A stretch of 40,299 bases of DNA from assembly GCA_004294095.1 (NCBI GenBank), contig RDZR01000051.1, forward strand, positions 1-40,299. The letters are read 5' to 3'. Below the pieces are notes generated by a model. It was not told the DNA's origin. It saw only the letters and a list, made by a program, of their open reading frames with translations, and did no database searches. Below, in pieces: positions 18,784 through 24,757 of the stretch. Source of the DNA: Verrucomicrobiota bacterium. Lineage in GTDB: Bacteria; Verrucomicrobiota; Verrucomicrobiia; Verrucomicrobiales; Akkermansiaceae. How positions within the stretch are numbered: the stretch's first letter is position 1; each line of letters begins with the position of its first letter. The translations under genes were made by a program, and so were the position numbers.

Positions 18784-19491
18784 TCAATCCGCGCTGAGCA
18801 ACTTGGCATCTTGGAAGCTGATGGATTGCAGTTTGTCTTCGTGATCGTTGTAAAAAAGCACCACGTAATTGCCTGCGTTGCTTATCGGGATCGAGGGTAA
18901 CTCATCGCCGCCTTTCAAACGCAACGGGACATAGCCCGCAGTGAAAGAAATGGGCGCGGACGTCACCGCCATGCGTTTGACGGAATAGGGCTTCCATGAT
19001 CCATCCGTCTCGCCAAGTTCCACTTGGATTTCAGGATTGTTGGCAACCGAAATAAAGCTCGCCGCGAATTCGGTCTTTGGCGTGATTTGTTTTAAGCGCA
19101 AGATGCGGATTGCCCAAAATGCAGGTTTTTCATCCGTGGCAGGCATTCGCTCAGCGAAGGGGATCAGCGTGGTTGTTAGTTTGTCTTCTACTTTGACGCG
19201 GGTTTTGCCGGATTCGGTTCCATTGCGGACGATGGTAATTTCTTGAGTGCCCGTGGGAACTTCGAAGGCTCTGGTTCGCTGGCCTAGCTTGTAACCTTTT
19301 TGATTGGTTCTCTCGCCATTGATGCTTATTTCTAACGGTCCATCACCTTCGACCACGGCATTGACAAAGCGGATGAAACCAGCAGGTTTTTCAGCAGATT
19401 CTTGCGCCCAAGCGCTTGTGCTGGAGCCGATGTTAAAAAACAACGCAGCAAGCAGGCTGCTTGCGGAGGTAAGTTTAAAAATCTCTTTCAT
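18784..19491 (-). CDS. exported protein of unknown function, fifth gene of the Verru_Chthon cluster
   Basis: I chose ATG at 19491, which gives 235 residues with a signal peptide (MKEIFKLTSASSLLAALFF, cleavage near SAWAQ). A longer in-frame extension to 19722 only repeats, in another frame, DNA that codes for the upstream gene. The mature protein looks all-beta. A first domain (RFVNAVVEGDGPLEISING, TQEITIVRNG) resembles DUF4397-like Ig folds, and a second begins near AFWAIRILRLKQ. It overlaps the 3' end of the giant pilin-like gene by 17 bp, so it is translated from the same mRNA. A role as periplasmic or surface partner of the pseudopilus is plausible but not shown by any motif. Confidence 0.75.
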   Translation of the reverse strand: MKEIFKLTSASSLLAALFFNIGSSTSAWAQESAEKPAGFIRFVNAVVEGDGPLEISINGERTNQKGYKLGQRTRAFEVPTGTQEITIVRNGTESGKTRVKVEDKLTTTLIPFAERMPATDEKPAFWAIRILRLKQITPKTEFAASFISVANNPEIQVELGETDGSWKPYSVKRMAVTSAPISFTAGYVPLRLKGGDELPSIPISNAGNYVVLFYNDHEDKLQSISFQDAKLLSAD

Positions 19492-22400
19492 GAATGATTT
19501 TGAGTTGTGAATTTTGAATTTCGCCAAAAGAACTGCGGACCCCAGGATCCAAGAAGACACTATACGCTCGACGTGCCTCGGCAAGCACTTCCACTGATGG
19601 CACATTTCCAGAACGGTCCATTGTGCCACTGATCGATTGGCCGACGACCCAAACTCGGAAATTGCGTGAACGTAGGGTGCTGCCTTCGTAAACTCGGGCA
19701 AAGATTTCCTCTGCCGCGGCATCCGTCATTTGCAATCGATTGTTGTTTTGATTTGCAGGATAAAGATTTTTGTTGCCGAAAACAGGTTGGTCTCGCAAAT
19801 TTACGTTAGCATCTTCAGAGTTTATTTTCACGGAGGCCAACTCTGCAGCACTTGCAAATGGACGCTTGGCGATGATGTAATCCGCAAGCATATCAGCTTC
19901 TAGTGTATTGCCAGATGAGGCAGCAGAGGTAGGGGCGCTGAGCGGTGGATCGACGGAAGCCTTTCGAGCTGAGAATGATCCATCTGAAGTCTCGTGCGTC
20001 CAACTCGTCACTCTTCGGATTTGTTCGTCCTGGCGCAAACGCCCGGCTGCTAAGGCGCGAATGGCATCGCGAGTGGCGGTATTGATGTTCACTTGGCCCT
20101 CAATGCGAGCCAAGTTACCTTGGCGCTCGATGGCTCCGTTTGAGGTTGGCTTGCCGACGTGGAATAGATCTAACAGTGAAGCCGCGTGAGCACCGGGAGC
20201 ATCGAACTTGGGGTGCTCTGGTCGGCCGATGCGTAGGGTATTGCCGCCTCCATGCATGTTGCTGATGGTGTTAGTCCGTTCAACGCTGGGCCAAACGTTT
20301 CTCCTTGGCGGAAACAATGGAGGGCTTCTTTCGATTTCTGCGGTATCTGACCGGCCCGTCCCTTGCTGCCCTGGCAAATCAGCATACGTAGGCCTCCATA
20401 AGATTGGATCATAAACTAGACCAAGTTCGGTCGTGCTGTAAAAAACGCCTTCATTGGAAAGCCGATGTGGTGCATTTCTAGCATCTGGCACCGGCAAGGA
20501 GGAGTTGAACATTGGATCGGTCGGTAAGGTTGGTGAAAATTCAGTGCTAAGAACAGGAAAATTTCCGACAGGGGAATCGTGACCTCCATCAGGCCATTCC
20601 GAGGGGAGGACTCTTCCGTGTGGCCCTCGCTTTTGATTGCTAGGGTCAATATCATAGATTGTAGCGCGGCGAATATTGCGCCGCCCAGGGCTAATATTTC
20701 TATAAATGTTATCACTAAGTGGCATTCCTCTACGAGGATTTAAGCCAAATTCTAGATAAGAACTAATGCGAGGATCACCCATATTATTAACGTATAATAT
20801 CGATTGTGTAGAGCCGGTTTGTCTTATGCCGTAGCTATGTCCAGGGATCGCAGCTCTTGCGAAAAAAATAGGCTTATCTGAAGTTAAATTTTGAGGTCTG
20901 CGGACAATAGCAGGAACCCGCTGAATGAAGTCATTATTCCAGTATAGTGATATTCCTCTGAGTTGGTTTTCTTCTTCCGTATAATTAAATGTAAAGTTCT
21001 TGCCAAGCTCACCCTGCCTAGGAAAAAAATCAATCGTGTAATTGACTTCTGCCATTTTTAAAACTTTATACTCATCAGGGAGCAGACTCACTGAAACGGA
21101 AGCAGTTTTATAAGATCCATCTTTTTTAATGAGTGAATGTGAGGATTGGGTGGGGTCATCCAAAAATCTTGGGTCATCGAATGGAATGACTTCATCGAGC
21201 TTGGAGTCTACATCCAGCGCCATGTTCACTTCATAAGTGGTTTCCGCAGATCCTTGCACTGGTAAATTGGTCATGTTCCATAACTCAATAAATAATTGAA
21301 AACGAAATTGGTGAACATGCCGCGTGTCTATTTTTTTAGCGCCCTGGTAGTGAATATGAAGATAGATTTCACTAAGAAGAGGAAACCCATCGAGCCCTAA
21401 ATAATTACCTCCAATGGTTGGAGCAGAATCGGCATCGGCATAATCGAAGGCGTTCGCAGCGAGCGTGCTGAGGTAATCGACGGTAGGTGGCAAGCCACCT
21501 TTGCGATCCTCAAAGGGGACGAACGGGCCGGGTGGATCGATTAGACTATTGCGAATTTGATTGGCAAAGGAAGCCACGGCGCCAGAGCGATCTGGTTGGT
21601 TTAATAATTGGTTTAGATTGATCTTCACTTGGCCAGCGCGGCCCGGCTCGATCCCGGGTGCGAAGGGTAGCACTGGGCGTTCGTCGTAAGGCTGGGTTTT
21701 GGCGATCGTATTCATTTCGATGGCGGCAGCTTGCGCATTTTCTAGGATGCCGGTGCCGGCGTTGCGTTGATTACCTGCGCCTTCGCTATTCAGGCCGGAG
21801 GCACCGAGTGGTGACTCTGGGGTGAGCATGTAATTGCGGTTTCTGATCAGGCTGGTGCTGAGGTCGTTGGTTTCGATCCGGCTTTTTTCTGGATCGAGCG
21901 TAAATAGGCCGATCACGCTCTGTGCCGGTAGTTTTGAGTCCAGATCAAGCGGCTTGTAGTTCGGATTGGGCCATCTGCTGCGCATGCTGCCGTCTGCCAT
22001 TAAAGGCAAGCGACCGGCGACTTCGGGATTGATTTTTCCCTGCATATCTTCCACAAAGTAGGCGTATCTTGAAATGACTTGCCCAGGATTTGCTGGATCG
22101 GTGACGTATCTCCAGTTGACTTTCACTGGGTCCATCCACGGTAGGGTGGTGAGCTTGGCGACGTTTTTTTCAGTTCTAAGATTGAGGAAATTTTCTGCAA
22201 GCGGGGGCTTGAGTTCTTGTTGGGTCACGGCTGCCATCTCCGCGCCGAAGAGTGGGGTGAGTTTATATTCGTATGCATCACCGCCGCCACTGCTAGGGCT
22301 TCCTTTGGCGATAAAAAGGTATGGAACTCGCTTCACGTCATCAATTCTGAATTGCGAATCATTTGCTTCTTCTTCCTCTTCTCTATTGAACTCTCGGCTG

Positions 22401-22645
22401 ACGATGTAAAAATCGTCGTTCTCAGCGTATGTTTTGAAGATGCCACGGAGTTCTTCGATGCTGATGGTGGTGGCCATTTCAGCCCGGCGTTGATCGACGA
22501 AGGAGCGCGCGCTTGAGCGCTCGATGCCGGTGATCAGCATCGAGCCGACGGCCATGATCATCAGGGCCGCAATGACGATGATGACGGTGGGCAGGGCAAA
22601 ACCTCGCGGCCTCCGGCATGAATGGATGGATGGAAGGTAATTCAT
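19475..22645 (-). CDS. Verru_Chthon cassette protein A, GspK-like giant pilin-related protein
   Basis: At 1056 residues this is far longer than GspK of type II secretion (about 320). It begins with a prepilin-like N-terminus: basic leader, RG, then FALPTVIIVIAALMIMAVG. The Glu normally at mature position 5 is absent, as in GspK. Further on it has a GspK-like helix-hairpin-helix segment, VNINTATRDAIRALAAG. The middle region contains many beta-type and low-similarity segments. The match to the family known as Verru_Chthon cassette protein A rests on length, N-terminus and cassette order. Ten bp separate it from the preceding GspJ-like gene. GspK caps the pseudopilus tip in other systems, so this one may form an enlarged tip or surface adhesin. 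Confidence 0.85.
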   Translation of the reverse strand: MNYLPSIHSCRRPRGFALPTVIIVIAALMIMAVGSMLITGIERSSARSFVDQRRAEMATTISIEELRGIFKTYAENDDFYIVSREFNREEEEEANDSQFRIDDVKRVPYLFIAKGSPSSGGGDAYEYKLTPLFGAEMAAVTQQELKPPLAENFLNLRTEKNVAKLTTLPWMDPVKVNWRYVTDPANPGQVISRYAYFVEDMQGKINPEVAGRLPLMADGSMRSRWPNPNYKPLDLDSKLPAQSVIGLFTLDPEKSRIETNDLSTSLIRNRNYMLTPESPLGASGLNSEGAGNQRNAGTGILENAQAAAIEMNTIAKTQPYDERPVLPFAPGIEPGRAGQVKINLNQLLNQPDRSGAVASFANQIRNSLIDPPGPFVPFEDRKGGLPPTVDYLSTLAANAFDYADADSAPTIGGNYLGLDGFPLLSEIYLHIHYQGAKKIDTRHVHQFRFQLFIELWNMTNLPVQGSAETTYEVNMALDVDSKLDEVIPFDDPRFLDDPTQSSHSLIKKDGSYKTASVSVSLLPDEYKVLKMAEVNYTIDFFPRQGELGKNFTFNYTEEENQLRGISLYWNNDFIQRVPAIVRRPQNLTSDKPIFFARAAIPGHSYGIRQTGSTQSILYVNNMGDPRISSYLEFGLNPRRGMPLSDNIYRNISPGRRNIRRATIYDIDPSNQKRGPHGRVLPSEWPDGGHDSPVGNFPVLSTEFSPTLPTDPMFNSSLPVPDARNAPHRLSNEGVFYSTTELGLVYDPILWRPTYADLPGQQGTGRSDTAEIERSPPLFPPRRNVWPSVERTNTISNMHGGGNTLRIGRPEHPKFDAPGAHAASLLDLFHVGKPTSNGAIERQGNLARIEGQVNINTATRDAIRALAAGRLRQDEQIRRVTSWTHETSDGSFSARKASVDPPLSAPTSAASSGNTLEADMLADYIIAKRPFASAAELASVKINSEDANVNLRDQPVFGNKNLYPANQNNNRLQMTDAAAEEIFARVYEGSTLRSRNFRVWVVGQSISGTMDRSGNVPSVEVLAEARRAYSVFLDPGVRSSFGEIQNSQLKIIHERDF

Positions 22646-22655
22646 GAAGCGAAAA

Positions 22656-23411
22656 TTAGGAAGCTGAGTTGCCGAAGCGGATGAAAGCTTTGAAGGTCTC
22701 TAAATCTTTGTTTTCTGAAATCTTGGATGACTGTCCCAGAAATGGGCTGGAATTCCAATCGTTCGTAGAATTGAGCCGCGACATGAGGCTGCGGCTTGCG
22801 ACGGTGAGAGTGATTTCTAGCAAATCTGGCGGGGTGGTTGGATTGGGTTGCCAATCGGTGAGTGCGCCTGTGTTGGTGCGCACGCGCGGAATGACTTTGA
22901 AGCTGACGACGCCAAAGGCGATCGGCTCATCCAATGTTCCTTGAGGTGCAAATAACTGATCTTGCACGCTATTATCGCTGCGCAGAGCCGAGAACGTCTG
23001 GCGGCTATTGCGGAAGCCGCGCATCAGGCAGCGCACCACTTTGCCGTTGTGGCTGATGTCCGCAATGTAATAACTTACTGCACACAAATCACCGACGAAA
23101 TCGGCAGAATCTTGTGACGCTTCCGGTAAAGATGTGAGAAATCCGAGTTTTGTTTTCGTCCAAGCTTCTGGATTTTCGGTTTGAATGAGTAGGTCTTTCT
23201 GAAAGACGGCGGCACTCAAGTCTTGCTGTAAGGTGGTGAAGACGGCACGCCCTTCGCGCTCGCTTGCGACGTTATTGCCAACGCGTGAGTAACTTTCTCC
23301 GCTGGTGCCAAGCATGCCGGCAGCAAGCAGCAAAACGATTGAGCCAATGGCCATCGAAAACATCAACTCCACGAGTGTGAAGCCGCCTTGAGTCGAACGG
23401 GAAGCGATCAC
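22656..23411 (-). CDS. Verru_Chthon cassette protein C, GspJ-like prepilin
   Basis: A 251-residue pseudopilin. The class III signal is textbook: MIASRSTQGG, cleaved before FTLVELMFSMAIG, with the Glu at mature position 5. The mature domain contains EGRAVFTTLQQDLSAAVF, matching the GspJ-type helix-then-strand start, and ends FKAFIRFGNSAS. It overlaps the previous gene by 4 bp and precedes the giant GspK-like gene by 10 bp. Processing would need a prepilin peptidase (PilD) encoded elsewhere. The position in the cassette mirrors gspJ between gspI and gspK. Confidence 0.88.
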   Translation of the reverse strand: MIASRSTQGGFTLVELMFSMAIGSIVLLLAAGMLGTSGESYSRVGNNVASEREGRAVFTTLQQDLSAAVFQKDLLIQTENPEAWTKTKLGFLTSLPEASQDSADFVGDLCAVSYYIADISHNGKVVRCLMRGFRNSRQTFSALRSDNSVQDQLFAPQGTLDEPIAFGVVSFKVIPRVRTNTGALTDWQPNPTTPPDLLEITLTVASRSLMSRLNSTNDWNSSPFLGQSSKISENKDLETFKAFIRFGNSAS

Positions 23412-23965
23412 GGGTTAGAAGAAGCTGGAGGAGCGGGAATCAGCGAGTGAAACTTGACTAGCTGGCGGCGTGCTTGGGGAGCACTCGCTGGATATTCAAT
23501 GGTGATGGTCAAGGGCAACATCGGCACGGCTGTTCTTGTTTGAGGATTGTTGTCAGTCCGAGGTAGTGATGTTTTAATGTTAGCGATGTAACGCACTTCG
23601 CTATTGCCGATTTTAGAGGTGCCAGAGGCATAATCGCCATCGCTGATGCGCCCGATCAACTCGCCTTGTGAGCTGAAGCCAAGTGCCCAAATTTGGCCTC
23701 CAGTCGGCAATGCATCACCTACTTTTGTGGCTGGAAAATAGACTGATTTGCCCAACCTCGAAGCTTCGATTTCTTCCAAACAAATCGGCACAAGCCATGA
23801 AGTGCGAGTTTCTGCTTCGGAGGAAACACTGGTTTTCCCGGACTCTGCGATGGCACCAAAAACAAGCGGAATGGCCACTGCGAGAATGCCCATGGCAATC
23901 ACGACTTCCACGAGTGATGCGCCGCGATGATGAGGTTGGTAGTTTTTTCGGTAAGGAAAATTCAT
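23408..23965 (-). CDS. Verru_Chthon cassette protein B, GspI-like prepilin
   Basis: A 185-residue protein with a class III signal: basic leader ending HHRG, then ASLVEVVIAMGILAVA, with Glu at mature position 5. The mature part includes WLVPICLEEIEASRLGK and, near the end, a strand PLTITIEYPASAP typical of GspI-like minor pilins. It overlaps both neighbours by 4 bp (ATGA type), so the three small pilin genes are translationally coupled. It fits the Verru_Chthon B family by length, N-terminus and position. Confidence 0.86.
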   Translation of the reverse strand: MNFPYRKNYQPHHRGASLVEVVIAMGILAVAIPLVFGAIAESGKTSVSSEAETRTSWLVPICLEEIEASRLGKSVYFPATKVGDALPTGGQIWALGFSSQGELIGRISDGDYASGTSKIGNSEVRYIANIKTSLPRTDNNPQTRTAVPMLPLTITIEYPASAPQARRQLVKFHSLIPAPPASSNP

Positions 23966-24636
23966 GGCATCAAGAATGGGCGGGCTGTGATGCGCCCTAA
24001 TTTTACACGTGTTTCTGGCAGCGGCGATCCATCATTGGGTGCATTGACCACTGGCCGGTTATCGCGGTAGGTTCCGGCAGCGATACGGAGGATCAGCGGC
24101 GTCGAGCCAGCCGGATATGTCAAGCGGCCGCGGCTATTAAAAACCAATGCATGCACGGTGATGCTTTCGCGAGTCGCGCCCCGCTTGTAGGTGATGGGAA
24201 TTTGCGCCGCGTCCATCGGATTAGACATCCCGTCATATTGACCTGAGCCTAAAATGATGCCAGTATTAAAAGATCTCCAGCGCTGGAGTTGGGTATGGGG
24301 CACCCTCTCGGTCTCTTTCTCGGTCGGGTCCGTTTCATTGACGCTAAACATGCCGATGCGCAGCTGATTGTCCGTCCTGCCTAGCGGTAAATCATTTGGC
24401 TCTAAAATGGCAAGTATCACATCTCTGCGCGTGACCATCGCTTGATAGCGCGCTTGCTCGATCATGCCGATGAGCATCTCGGTGCCTGCGCGGCGAGATT
24501 GGGCACCCGTGTCCTTCAACAAGCTAATTCCCGACACCATCAAAATGGAAACAATCGCCACCACCGTCAGCATTTCAATCAAAGTGAATGCTGGCCGATT
24601 GCGCTTAGTTCGGGGCGCTCGATGGAGATGATTCAT
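23962..24636 (-). CDS. Verru_Chthon cassette protein D, GspH-like prepilin
   Basis: First gene of the cassette, 224 residues. Its N-terminus reads KRNRPA, then FTLIEMLTVVAIVSILMVSG. The hydrophobic helix and Glu5 are classic, but position -1 is Ala instead of the near-invariant Gly, which may slow or change processing by prepilin peptidase. The GspH-like part follows (LIGMIEQARYQAMVTRRDVILAI). It starts about 20 bases downstream of the transcription start expected from a consensus sigma-54 promoter at 24667..24684. The gene order D-B-C-A corresponds to gspH-I-J-K. Confidence 0.87.
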   Translation of the reverse strand: MNHLHRAPRTKRNRPAFTLIEMLTVVAIVSILMVSGISLLKDTGAQSRRAGTEMLIGMIEQARYQAMVTRRDVILAILEPNDLPLGRTDNQLRIGMFSVNETDPTEKETERVPHTQLQRWRSFNTGIILGSGQYDGMSNPMDAAQIPITYKRGATRESITVHALVFNSRGRLTYPAGSTPLILRIAAGTYRDNRPVVNAPNDGSPLPETRVKLGRITARPFLMP

Positions 24637-24666
24637 ACGCTTCTAATGTCCGCTTTTGCGATGTGG

Positions 24667-24684
24667 TTGCAACATTCGTGCCAA
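24667..24684 (-). promoter_or_regulatory. consensus sigma-54 (-24/-12) promoter of the Verru_Chthon cassette
   Basis: The minus strand reads TTGGCACGAATGTTGCAA, which fits the sigma-54 consensus TGGCACG-N4-TTGC(A/T) at every fixed position. Expected transcription start is near 24657, leaving about 20 bases to the ATG at 24636. Sigma-54 promoters need an activator ATPase, so the pilin operon should be switched by an NtrC-type regulator. Type IV pilin genes in other bacteria are often controlled this way. Confidence 0.82.
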
Positions 24685-24712
24685 CACTTAGTAAACACAT
24701 CCAACGTTCCAT

Positions 24713-24757
24713 AAATGTGATTTTTTGCAACTAGGGAAATGTGACGGGATGTTCACA
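24713..24757. promoter_or_regulatory. possible upstream activator sites for the sigma-54 promoter
   Basis: AAATGTGA occurs at 24713..24720 and 24737..24744. The second copy forms an inverted repeat TGTGA-N8-TCACA (24740..24757). These lie about 30-75 bp upstream of the -24 element, a usable though close distance for enhancer-binding proteins. A second sigma-70 or CRP-like use cannot be excluded. Confidence 0.35.

Follow-up and report, generated by a model that had tools for sequence, protein, structure and literature searches.

A predicted sigma-54 promoter with a conserved adjoining block in front of a minor-pilin operon of Verrucomicrobiota

Results

A five-gene cassette of prepilin-like proteins

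The window, i.e., the whole stretch of 40,299 nucleotides analyzed here, carries on its minus strand a cassette of five genes that overlap or abut. Gene 1 (23962 to 24636, 224 aa) is of the FimU/GspH minor-pilin type. Its product has a prepilin N terminus with a GFxxxE-type motif, scoring over the cut-off of the N_methyl model, and its AlphaFold2 model (pLDDT 82.6) was compared with the PDB. FimU (4ipu, E 3.5e-4) was the best fold match, with a TM-score of 0.37 by query and 0.62 by target, and EpsH (2qv8) was matched with E 5.8e-3. All of ranks 1 to 10 were FimU, EpsH or the XcpGHIJK filament, and two chains reached E 0.001. Gene 1 thus combines the two features of GspH/FimU proteins, the prepilin N terminus and the FimU/GspH-like fold.

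Gene 2 (23408 to 23965, 185 aa), which has 4 bases in common with gene 1, encodes a GspI-type, prepilin-like protein that matches the XpsI model below its cut-off (3.7e-5) and yielded no Pfam match. Gene 3 (22656 to 23411, 251 aa, GTG start) encodes a GspJ or Verru_Chthon C-like prepilin, over the cut-off for both TIGR02532 and N_methyl. Gene 4 (19475 to 22645) takes the position of GspK or cassette A; with 1056 aa, it is far longer than GspK, and its prepilin-like N terminus, GFALPTVIIVIAALM, is matched at only 0.0085. For gene 5 (18784 to 19491, 235 aa) the start was chosen at 19491, the longest open reading frame beginning at 19722; the N terminus looks by eye like a signal peptide, and DUF4397 is matched below cut-off (0.0027). 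The order of the genes is a direct observation.

Since the modeled fold of gene 1 resembles that of FimU and EpsH, the cassette is best described as a FimU/GspH-type minor-pilin operon, for which the Verru_Chthon label of a first-pass annotation is approximate only. The label was matched in part, by gene 3 for cassette protein C (TIGR02599, 1.9e-9, 37.3 bits against a cut-off of 256.5) and by gene 1 for D (TIGR02596, 27.4 bits against 70), both below cut-off, and a literature search for 'Verru_Chthon' found no paper using the name. The likeness to pilA drawn in the same annotation was not borne out, pilA encoding a major pilin and the cassette reading as a minor-pilin operon. Upstream of the cassette, 26402 to 24867 on the minus strand encodes a 511 aa protein with no Pfam (E<=0.1) or NCBIfam (E<=0.01) match.

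A full -24/-12 consensus match 30 bases from the start codon

On the minus strand, positions 24684 to 24667 read TTGGCACGAATGTTGCAA, leaving a gap of 30 bases to the ATG of gene 1 (24636). Within this stretch lies the element TGGCACGAATGTTGC (24669 to 24683, minus strand), which agrees with all 11 fixed bases of the sigma-54 consensus TGGCACG-N4-TTGC, as the first-pass annotation had pointed out. GG stands at -25/-24 and GC at -13/-12, with the GG-GC spacing of 10, and from the position of the -12 element (site at 24669) transcription is predicted to start at 24657.

The 15-mer is the single exact occurrence of TGGCACGN4TTGC in the window. With up to two mismatches 19 matches were counted against 18.5 expected, so the exact match alone stands out. 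Its earlier estimated chance probability of 0.02 is correct for the window, but by our own arithmetic, with equal base frequencies, a genome of 3.0 Mb should contain about 1.4 exact matches by chance. Six were found, with none for the backwards control; among them are the site itself, one match before a P-II gene and two inside open reading frames. Taken alone, the exact match is weak evidence, and conservation is the real evidence for the site. A scan of the interval for sigma-70-like promoters found nothing, which says little, as only 0.4 sites were expected by chance.

Conservation of the site upstream of orthologous genes

The 15 orthologues used for a first alignment have 33-48% identity to gene 1. 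Aligned upstream regions showed TGTNTTTACTTNGT at -42 to -29, followed by TGGC. A profile search then identified a gene 1 orthologue in 56/73 genomes of the genus. The 56 loci analyzed come from 54 genomes, two of which have a second copy; G185 and G202 stand outside these loci, G202 having only the gene end. The upstream region of G185 has the dyad described below as well as GG and GC (8/11 by eye), and the block is absent. The scan covered 55 of the 56 loci; L128 of G163, where the gene lies at another offset, was dropped from it and included in the block-anchored counts and alignments, and the site is present there.

A GG-N10-GC site with at least 9/11 consensus bases was found in 24/55 upstream regions and in 0/55 reverse complements. 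Three of these sites score 11/11, eight 10/11 and thirteen 9/11, and for each of them at most 4% of 200 dinucleotide shuffles score as well. Measured from the GFxxxE codon, 22/24 are placed between -83 and -115, and the remaining two at -59 and -252. The predicted conservation before orthologous genes was thus confirmed for these loci, but 31/55 upstream regions remain below 9/11. Six of the latter have an 8/11 site at -89 to -122. Decayed versions of the conserved region are seen in genus g1, where G117 lacks GG, G162 has GT at -12 and G098 lacks both; in G157 decay has gone further than in these three. Other upstream regions below 9/11 have nothing visible in common with it.

Three loci of this kind, L014, L017 and L018 (G069, G153 and G145), have a different upstream stretch in common; it contains CGTTAGCTG and TATCCACTC in 3/3 and is perhaps a replacement promoter. 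The CGTTAGC of this stretch also occurs upstream in G179.

For other genera, 27 of 28 orthologue matches were examined, G096, at a contig edge, being left out. The site reached at least 9/11 in 11/27 upstream regions and 0/27 on the reverse strand; one of the 11 is out of place, at -179. Two g7 genomes have an 11/11 site without the block.

A conserved block directly next to the -24 element

The block reads TGTGTTTACTAAGT in the window (24686 to 24699, minus strand) and spans -42 to -29, immediately before the -24 element. The pattern TTTACT-N6-TGGC-N8-TGC has a single exact match in the genome, and looser matches are near background (105 against 80 for the backwards control); a regulon of sigma-54 promoters marked by the TTTACT block was therefore rejected. 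Nor does the block belong to sigma-54 promoters of the organism in general: it is missing from the two such sites compared, the one before P-II and the rtcR-linked one.

We used the block as an anchor, defined as at least 10/12 matches to its consensus, among 83 orthologues; as the consensus was derived from the aligned sites themselves, the counts obtained in this way are not independent. The block was found in 40/83 orthologues, and 31/40 have GG and GC at the expected place (23/26 in g1, 7/8 in g11, 1/1 in g16 and 0/5 in g7), and none of the four g12 orthologues has the block. In 25 non-redundant block-anchored sequences from g1, g11 and g16, the bases of TGGC were kept in 24, 22, 24 and 24 and those of TGC in 23, 24 and 22 sequences, whereas the six bases in between agree in at most 13/25. 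Two kept elements separated by a variable spacer are the sigma-54 signature of two separate contacts.

Site and block are not always found together. Six g1 genomes (G122, G111, G182, G131, G195 and G061) have a site of at least 9/11 with the block below 10/12, and G117 has kept the block and -12 and lost GG. Five of 13 orthologues in the sister genus g7 (L187, L188, L194, L195 and L197) keep the block and TGGC without the GC at -12, and rpoN is present in their genomes. These five are the strongest contrary result for sigma-54, and the block seems to be uncoupled from sigma-54 in them. In L213 (g12), TGTGTAGACAATGTGTTGGCATG resembles by eye the block followed by -24, without GC at -12; it falls below the block threshold.

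A dyad completes a module that is unique in the genome

Further upstream lies the dyad TGTGAACATCCCGTCACA (24740 to 24757, minus strand), a candidate activator-binding enhancer centered near -91. The order of the module is dyad TGTGAC-N6-GTCACA, block TGTNTTTACTTNGT and then TGGCAC-N6-TGC. All three DNA elements, their conservation and the uniqueness of the module in its genome are observed directly. The first-pass annotation had recognized the -24/-12 site and missed the dyad and the block conserved with it.

A dyad of at least 9/12 is present in 33/55 orthologue upstream regions as compared to ~5% of 1,100 shuffled sequences, and in 31 of the 33 it is placed between -159 and -173 relative to the GFxxxE codon. 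The pattern TTTACTNNGTNNTGGCN8TGC was found in 20/73 genus genomes, at 21 places, and in 0/73 with the backwards control. At 18/21 places it precedes a prepilin-like open reading frame of at least 100 aa; L089 and L095 lie before a large cassette-A-like frame, and L094 runs into the contig end. In 20 of 21 loci compared for the dyad, its best match starts either 62-67 bases (class TTTACTNNGTGTTGGCAC) or 48-51 bases (class TTTACTTRGTCGTGGCRC) before TTTACT, scoring 7/12 in L083 and at least 9/12 in the other 19; L098 is truncated at the start of its contig.

For a longer pattern with 19 fixed bases, TGTNTTTACTNNGTNNTGGCNCN6TGC, we calculate ~2 chance matches in 257 billion bases. It occurred 19 times in 84,980 species genomes, every time in Verrucomicrobiota MAGs, named Akkermansiaceae, Akkermansia, Verrucomicrobiaceae or Prosthecobacter; the viral contigs searched gave no match. 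Prepilin-like open reading frames of at least 60 aa follow 17/19 occurrences, two of them being short (68 and 77 aa), and the exceptions are L115, before a cassette-A-like frame, and L108, where the stretch is cut. As 17/19 occurrences are the same DNA as loci of the genus pattern search, the larger search demonstrates specificity and not independent occurrence. The module also persists at L107/L089 and L115/L095, where the first prepilin frame either has a mere 68 aa or was not seen and the frame that follows is large and cassette-A-like.

Enhancer-binding proteins and rpoN

The genome assembly (G000) comprises 113 contigs and 3.0 Mb and is 96.96% complete. The NtrC-family genes that the first-pass annotation had asked about are directly observed in it. 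PF00158 gave seven matches; since this model also matches 14/14 control genomes, only the three matches above 170 bits were counted and the four weaker ones disregarded. One of the three strong enhancer-binding proteins is RtcR (760 bits, cut-off 650), another an AtoC/NtrC-like regulator with a Fis-type helix-turn-helix, and the third an NtrC-like protein in which no HTH_8 was detected. Their motifs read GSFTGA, GAFTGA and GSFTGA, all in open frames. An attempt to name the activator by presence and absence failed: two candidates are found in 70/73 (E<=1e-130) and 68/73 (E<=1e-110) genus genomes and, being nearly universal, cannot be assigned to the dyad in this way.

The NtrC-like protein (L099:5888-7336, contig C40 of G000) occurs in 68/73 genus genomes. 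In its receiver domain, an alanine is aligned with the phosphate-accepting aspartate of the other regulator, in the protein itself and all eight relatives (L218-L225). Because of this replacement the protein is probably not switched by phosphorylation.

In contrast to the enhancer-binding proteins, rpoN, which a sigma-54 promoter leads one to expect in the genome, was not found in G000 with a DNA-binding-domain model, and a full-length model gave only one 10-bit match with E up to 10. The gene is present in 134/145 genomes of the family, in 108/110 of the better ones and in 21/21 other genus members sampled. Among these family genomes, G010 (g11) is the only other one at least 90% complete without rpoN, and its -24/-12 site is still kept. 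The rpoN flanks differ among relatives, so a search by synteny could not place a gap.

Two further -24/-12 sites belong to operon types that are classical sigma-54 targets, those of P-II and those linked to rtcR. A perfect TGGCACGN4TTGC precedes the P-II gene (L003, 1515 to 1501 minus, contig C38 of G000) and is likely an NtrC-type target. The other site, TGGCCCGCTGCGTGC, is found in the interval that separates rtcR from a Ro60-like gene. RtcR is described as an RpoN activator in the cited excerpt of PMC9879122.

Discussion

We consider it likely that this site forms the core of a sigma-54 promoter of the enhancer-dependent type, driving the five-gene minor-pilin (GspHIJK/FimU-type) operon; without a dedicated activator protein, the cassette would probably stay off. 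RNA polymerase carrying sigma-54 would occupy TGGCACG-N4-TTGC and stay there until it is remodeled, with the use of ATP, by an NtrC-family enhancer-binding protein at TGTGAC-N6-GTCACA, which lies ~90 bases before the predicted start. Beside -24, TGTNTTTACTTNGT is a third conserved element, at which an accessory regulator or a bending protein may act, and all five genes would be read as one transcript starting at 24657. The sigma-54-type promoter proposed in the first-pass annotation is supported by the conserved site and the strong enhancer-binding proteins, but rpoN, whose absence that annotation named as a refutation, is not found in the assembly. An assembly gap is the likelier reason for its absence, because almost all genomes of the family have the gene, and the three enhancer-binding proteins together with the two classical sigma-54 target types also suggest this.

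The missing rpoN could also mean that the lineage has lost the gene and the site is a relic no longer in use. Pathogenic Neisseria offer a precedent: according to the excerpt of PMC6528607, their rpoN is inactive and the sigma-54 promoter of pilE goes unused. Such a loss appears highly unlikely here: the site is still perfect, the three enhancer-binding proteins have open frames and the P-II and rtcR-linked sites persist, and, as G010 keeps the site as well, gaps in two assemblies fit better than two losses. Chance resemblance without function, in turn, could draw on the six exact matches in the genome, against about 1.4 expected and with two of them inside open reading frames, but a near-fixed position before orthologous genes in three genera makes it hardly credible; it is mainly conservation that refutes it.

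A different reading takes GTNTTTACTTNGTNNTGGC and the dyad as operators of ordinary regulators acting on a promoter of the sigma-70 family, with the -24/-12 likeness being secondary. The dyad might be the target of a regulator outside the sigma-54 system, and in class A the block can be read as TGTTTAC-N4-TGTTGGC, a direct repeat whose period of 11 bases would suit an OmpR/PhoB-type site. The five g7 orthologues that retain block and TGGC without GC, and G117 with its block and no GG, speak for this reading. Against it, TGC is kept at -14 to -12 at the exact spacing behind variable bases in g1, g11 and g16, and -24/-12 is kept where the block is degraded or missing, and we regard it as unlikely. 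Under the preferred sigma-54 reading, we tentatively raise the possibility that TGTNTTTACTTNGT is a new dedicated promoter element touching -24, read together with sigma-54 by a protein or by the holoenzyme itself, which commits one operon per genome, the minor-pilin cassette, to sigma-54 and has become uncoupled from it in part of g7.

The module gives this little-known cassette a switch that can be put to the test, with the lineages in which parts have decayed as a natural series. What it adds is predicted sigma-54 control of a Verrucomicrobiota minor-pilin operon, usually by a single site per genome and with an extra element next to -24.

Sigma-54 control of major pilins in Proteobacteria is well known. 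A close likeness in architecture is found at pilE of commensal Neisseria with RpoN, IHF and Npa, which shares GG-N10-GC, an upstream activator site, an element in between and a pilin target. As far as the excerpt of PMC6528607 goes, pilE of Neisseria elongata is controlled by RpoN and has an IHF site between the activator site and the promoter, and the minor-pilin genes tested there are not RpoN-controlled. The target in Neisseria is the major pilin and the middle element an IHF site, whereas the block described here adjoins -24 with constant spacing and precedes a minor-pilin operon as the target. PilS-PilR and pilA of Pseudomonas aeruginosa similarly combine sigma-54, an NtrC-family activator and a pilin target; in the part of PMC6058289 available, PilR acts on pilA, minor-pilin genes appear as indirect targets, and the hallmarks of PilR sites (TGTN11AGA and GTCT elements) differ from the dyad found here.

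The PEP-CTERM box (PrsR/PrsK) is likewise a two-part region recognized by conservation, with an activator motif (motif 1) and a -24/-12 sigma-54 motif (motif 2); the excerpt of PMC1569441 places it in Proteobacteria only and mostly before PEP-CTERM genes. Identity with this box was rejected, as the target here is a prepilin and not a PEP-CTERM protein; unlike the box, the module is single-copy and precedes a prepilin gene. A 2025 survey of sigma-54 regulons reports enrichment of PilA in Beta- and Gammaproteobacteria and, in the portion cited, gives no pilin for Verrucomicrobiota (PMC12316311), and a search for a sigma-54-controlled minor-pilin operon in Verrucomicrobiota gave no such report among the matches listed. 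The promoter type is known; among the matches listed, its employment ahead of minor-pilin genes in this phylum and the conserved block beside -24 appear new. With the GspHIJK and FimU-PilVWX minor-pilin operons, finally, the cassette shares the H-, I-, J-, K-like order and a first protein that folds like FimU and EpsH, and it differs from them in the fifth gene that follows and in the type of promoter.
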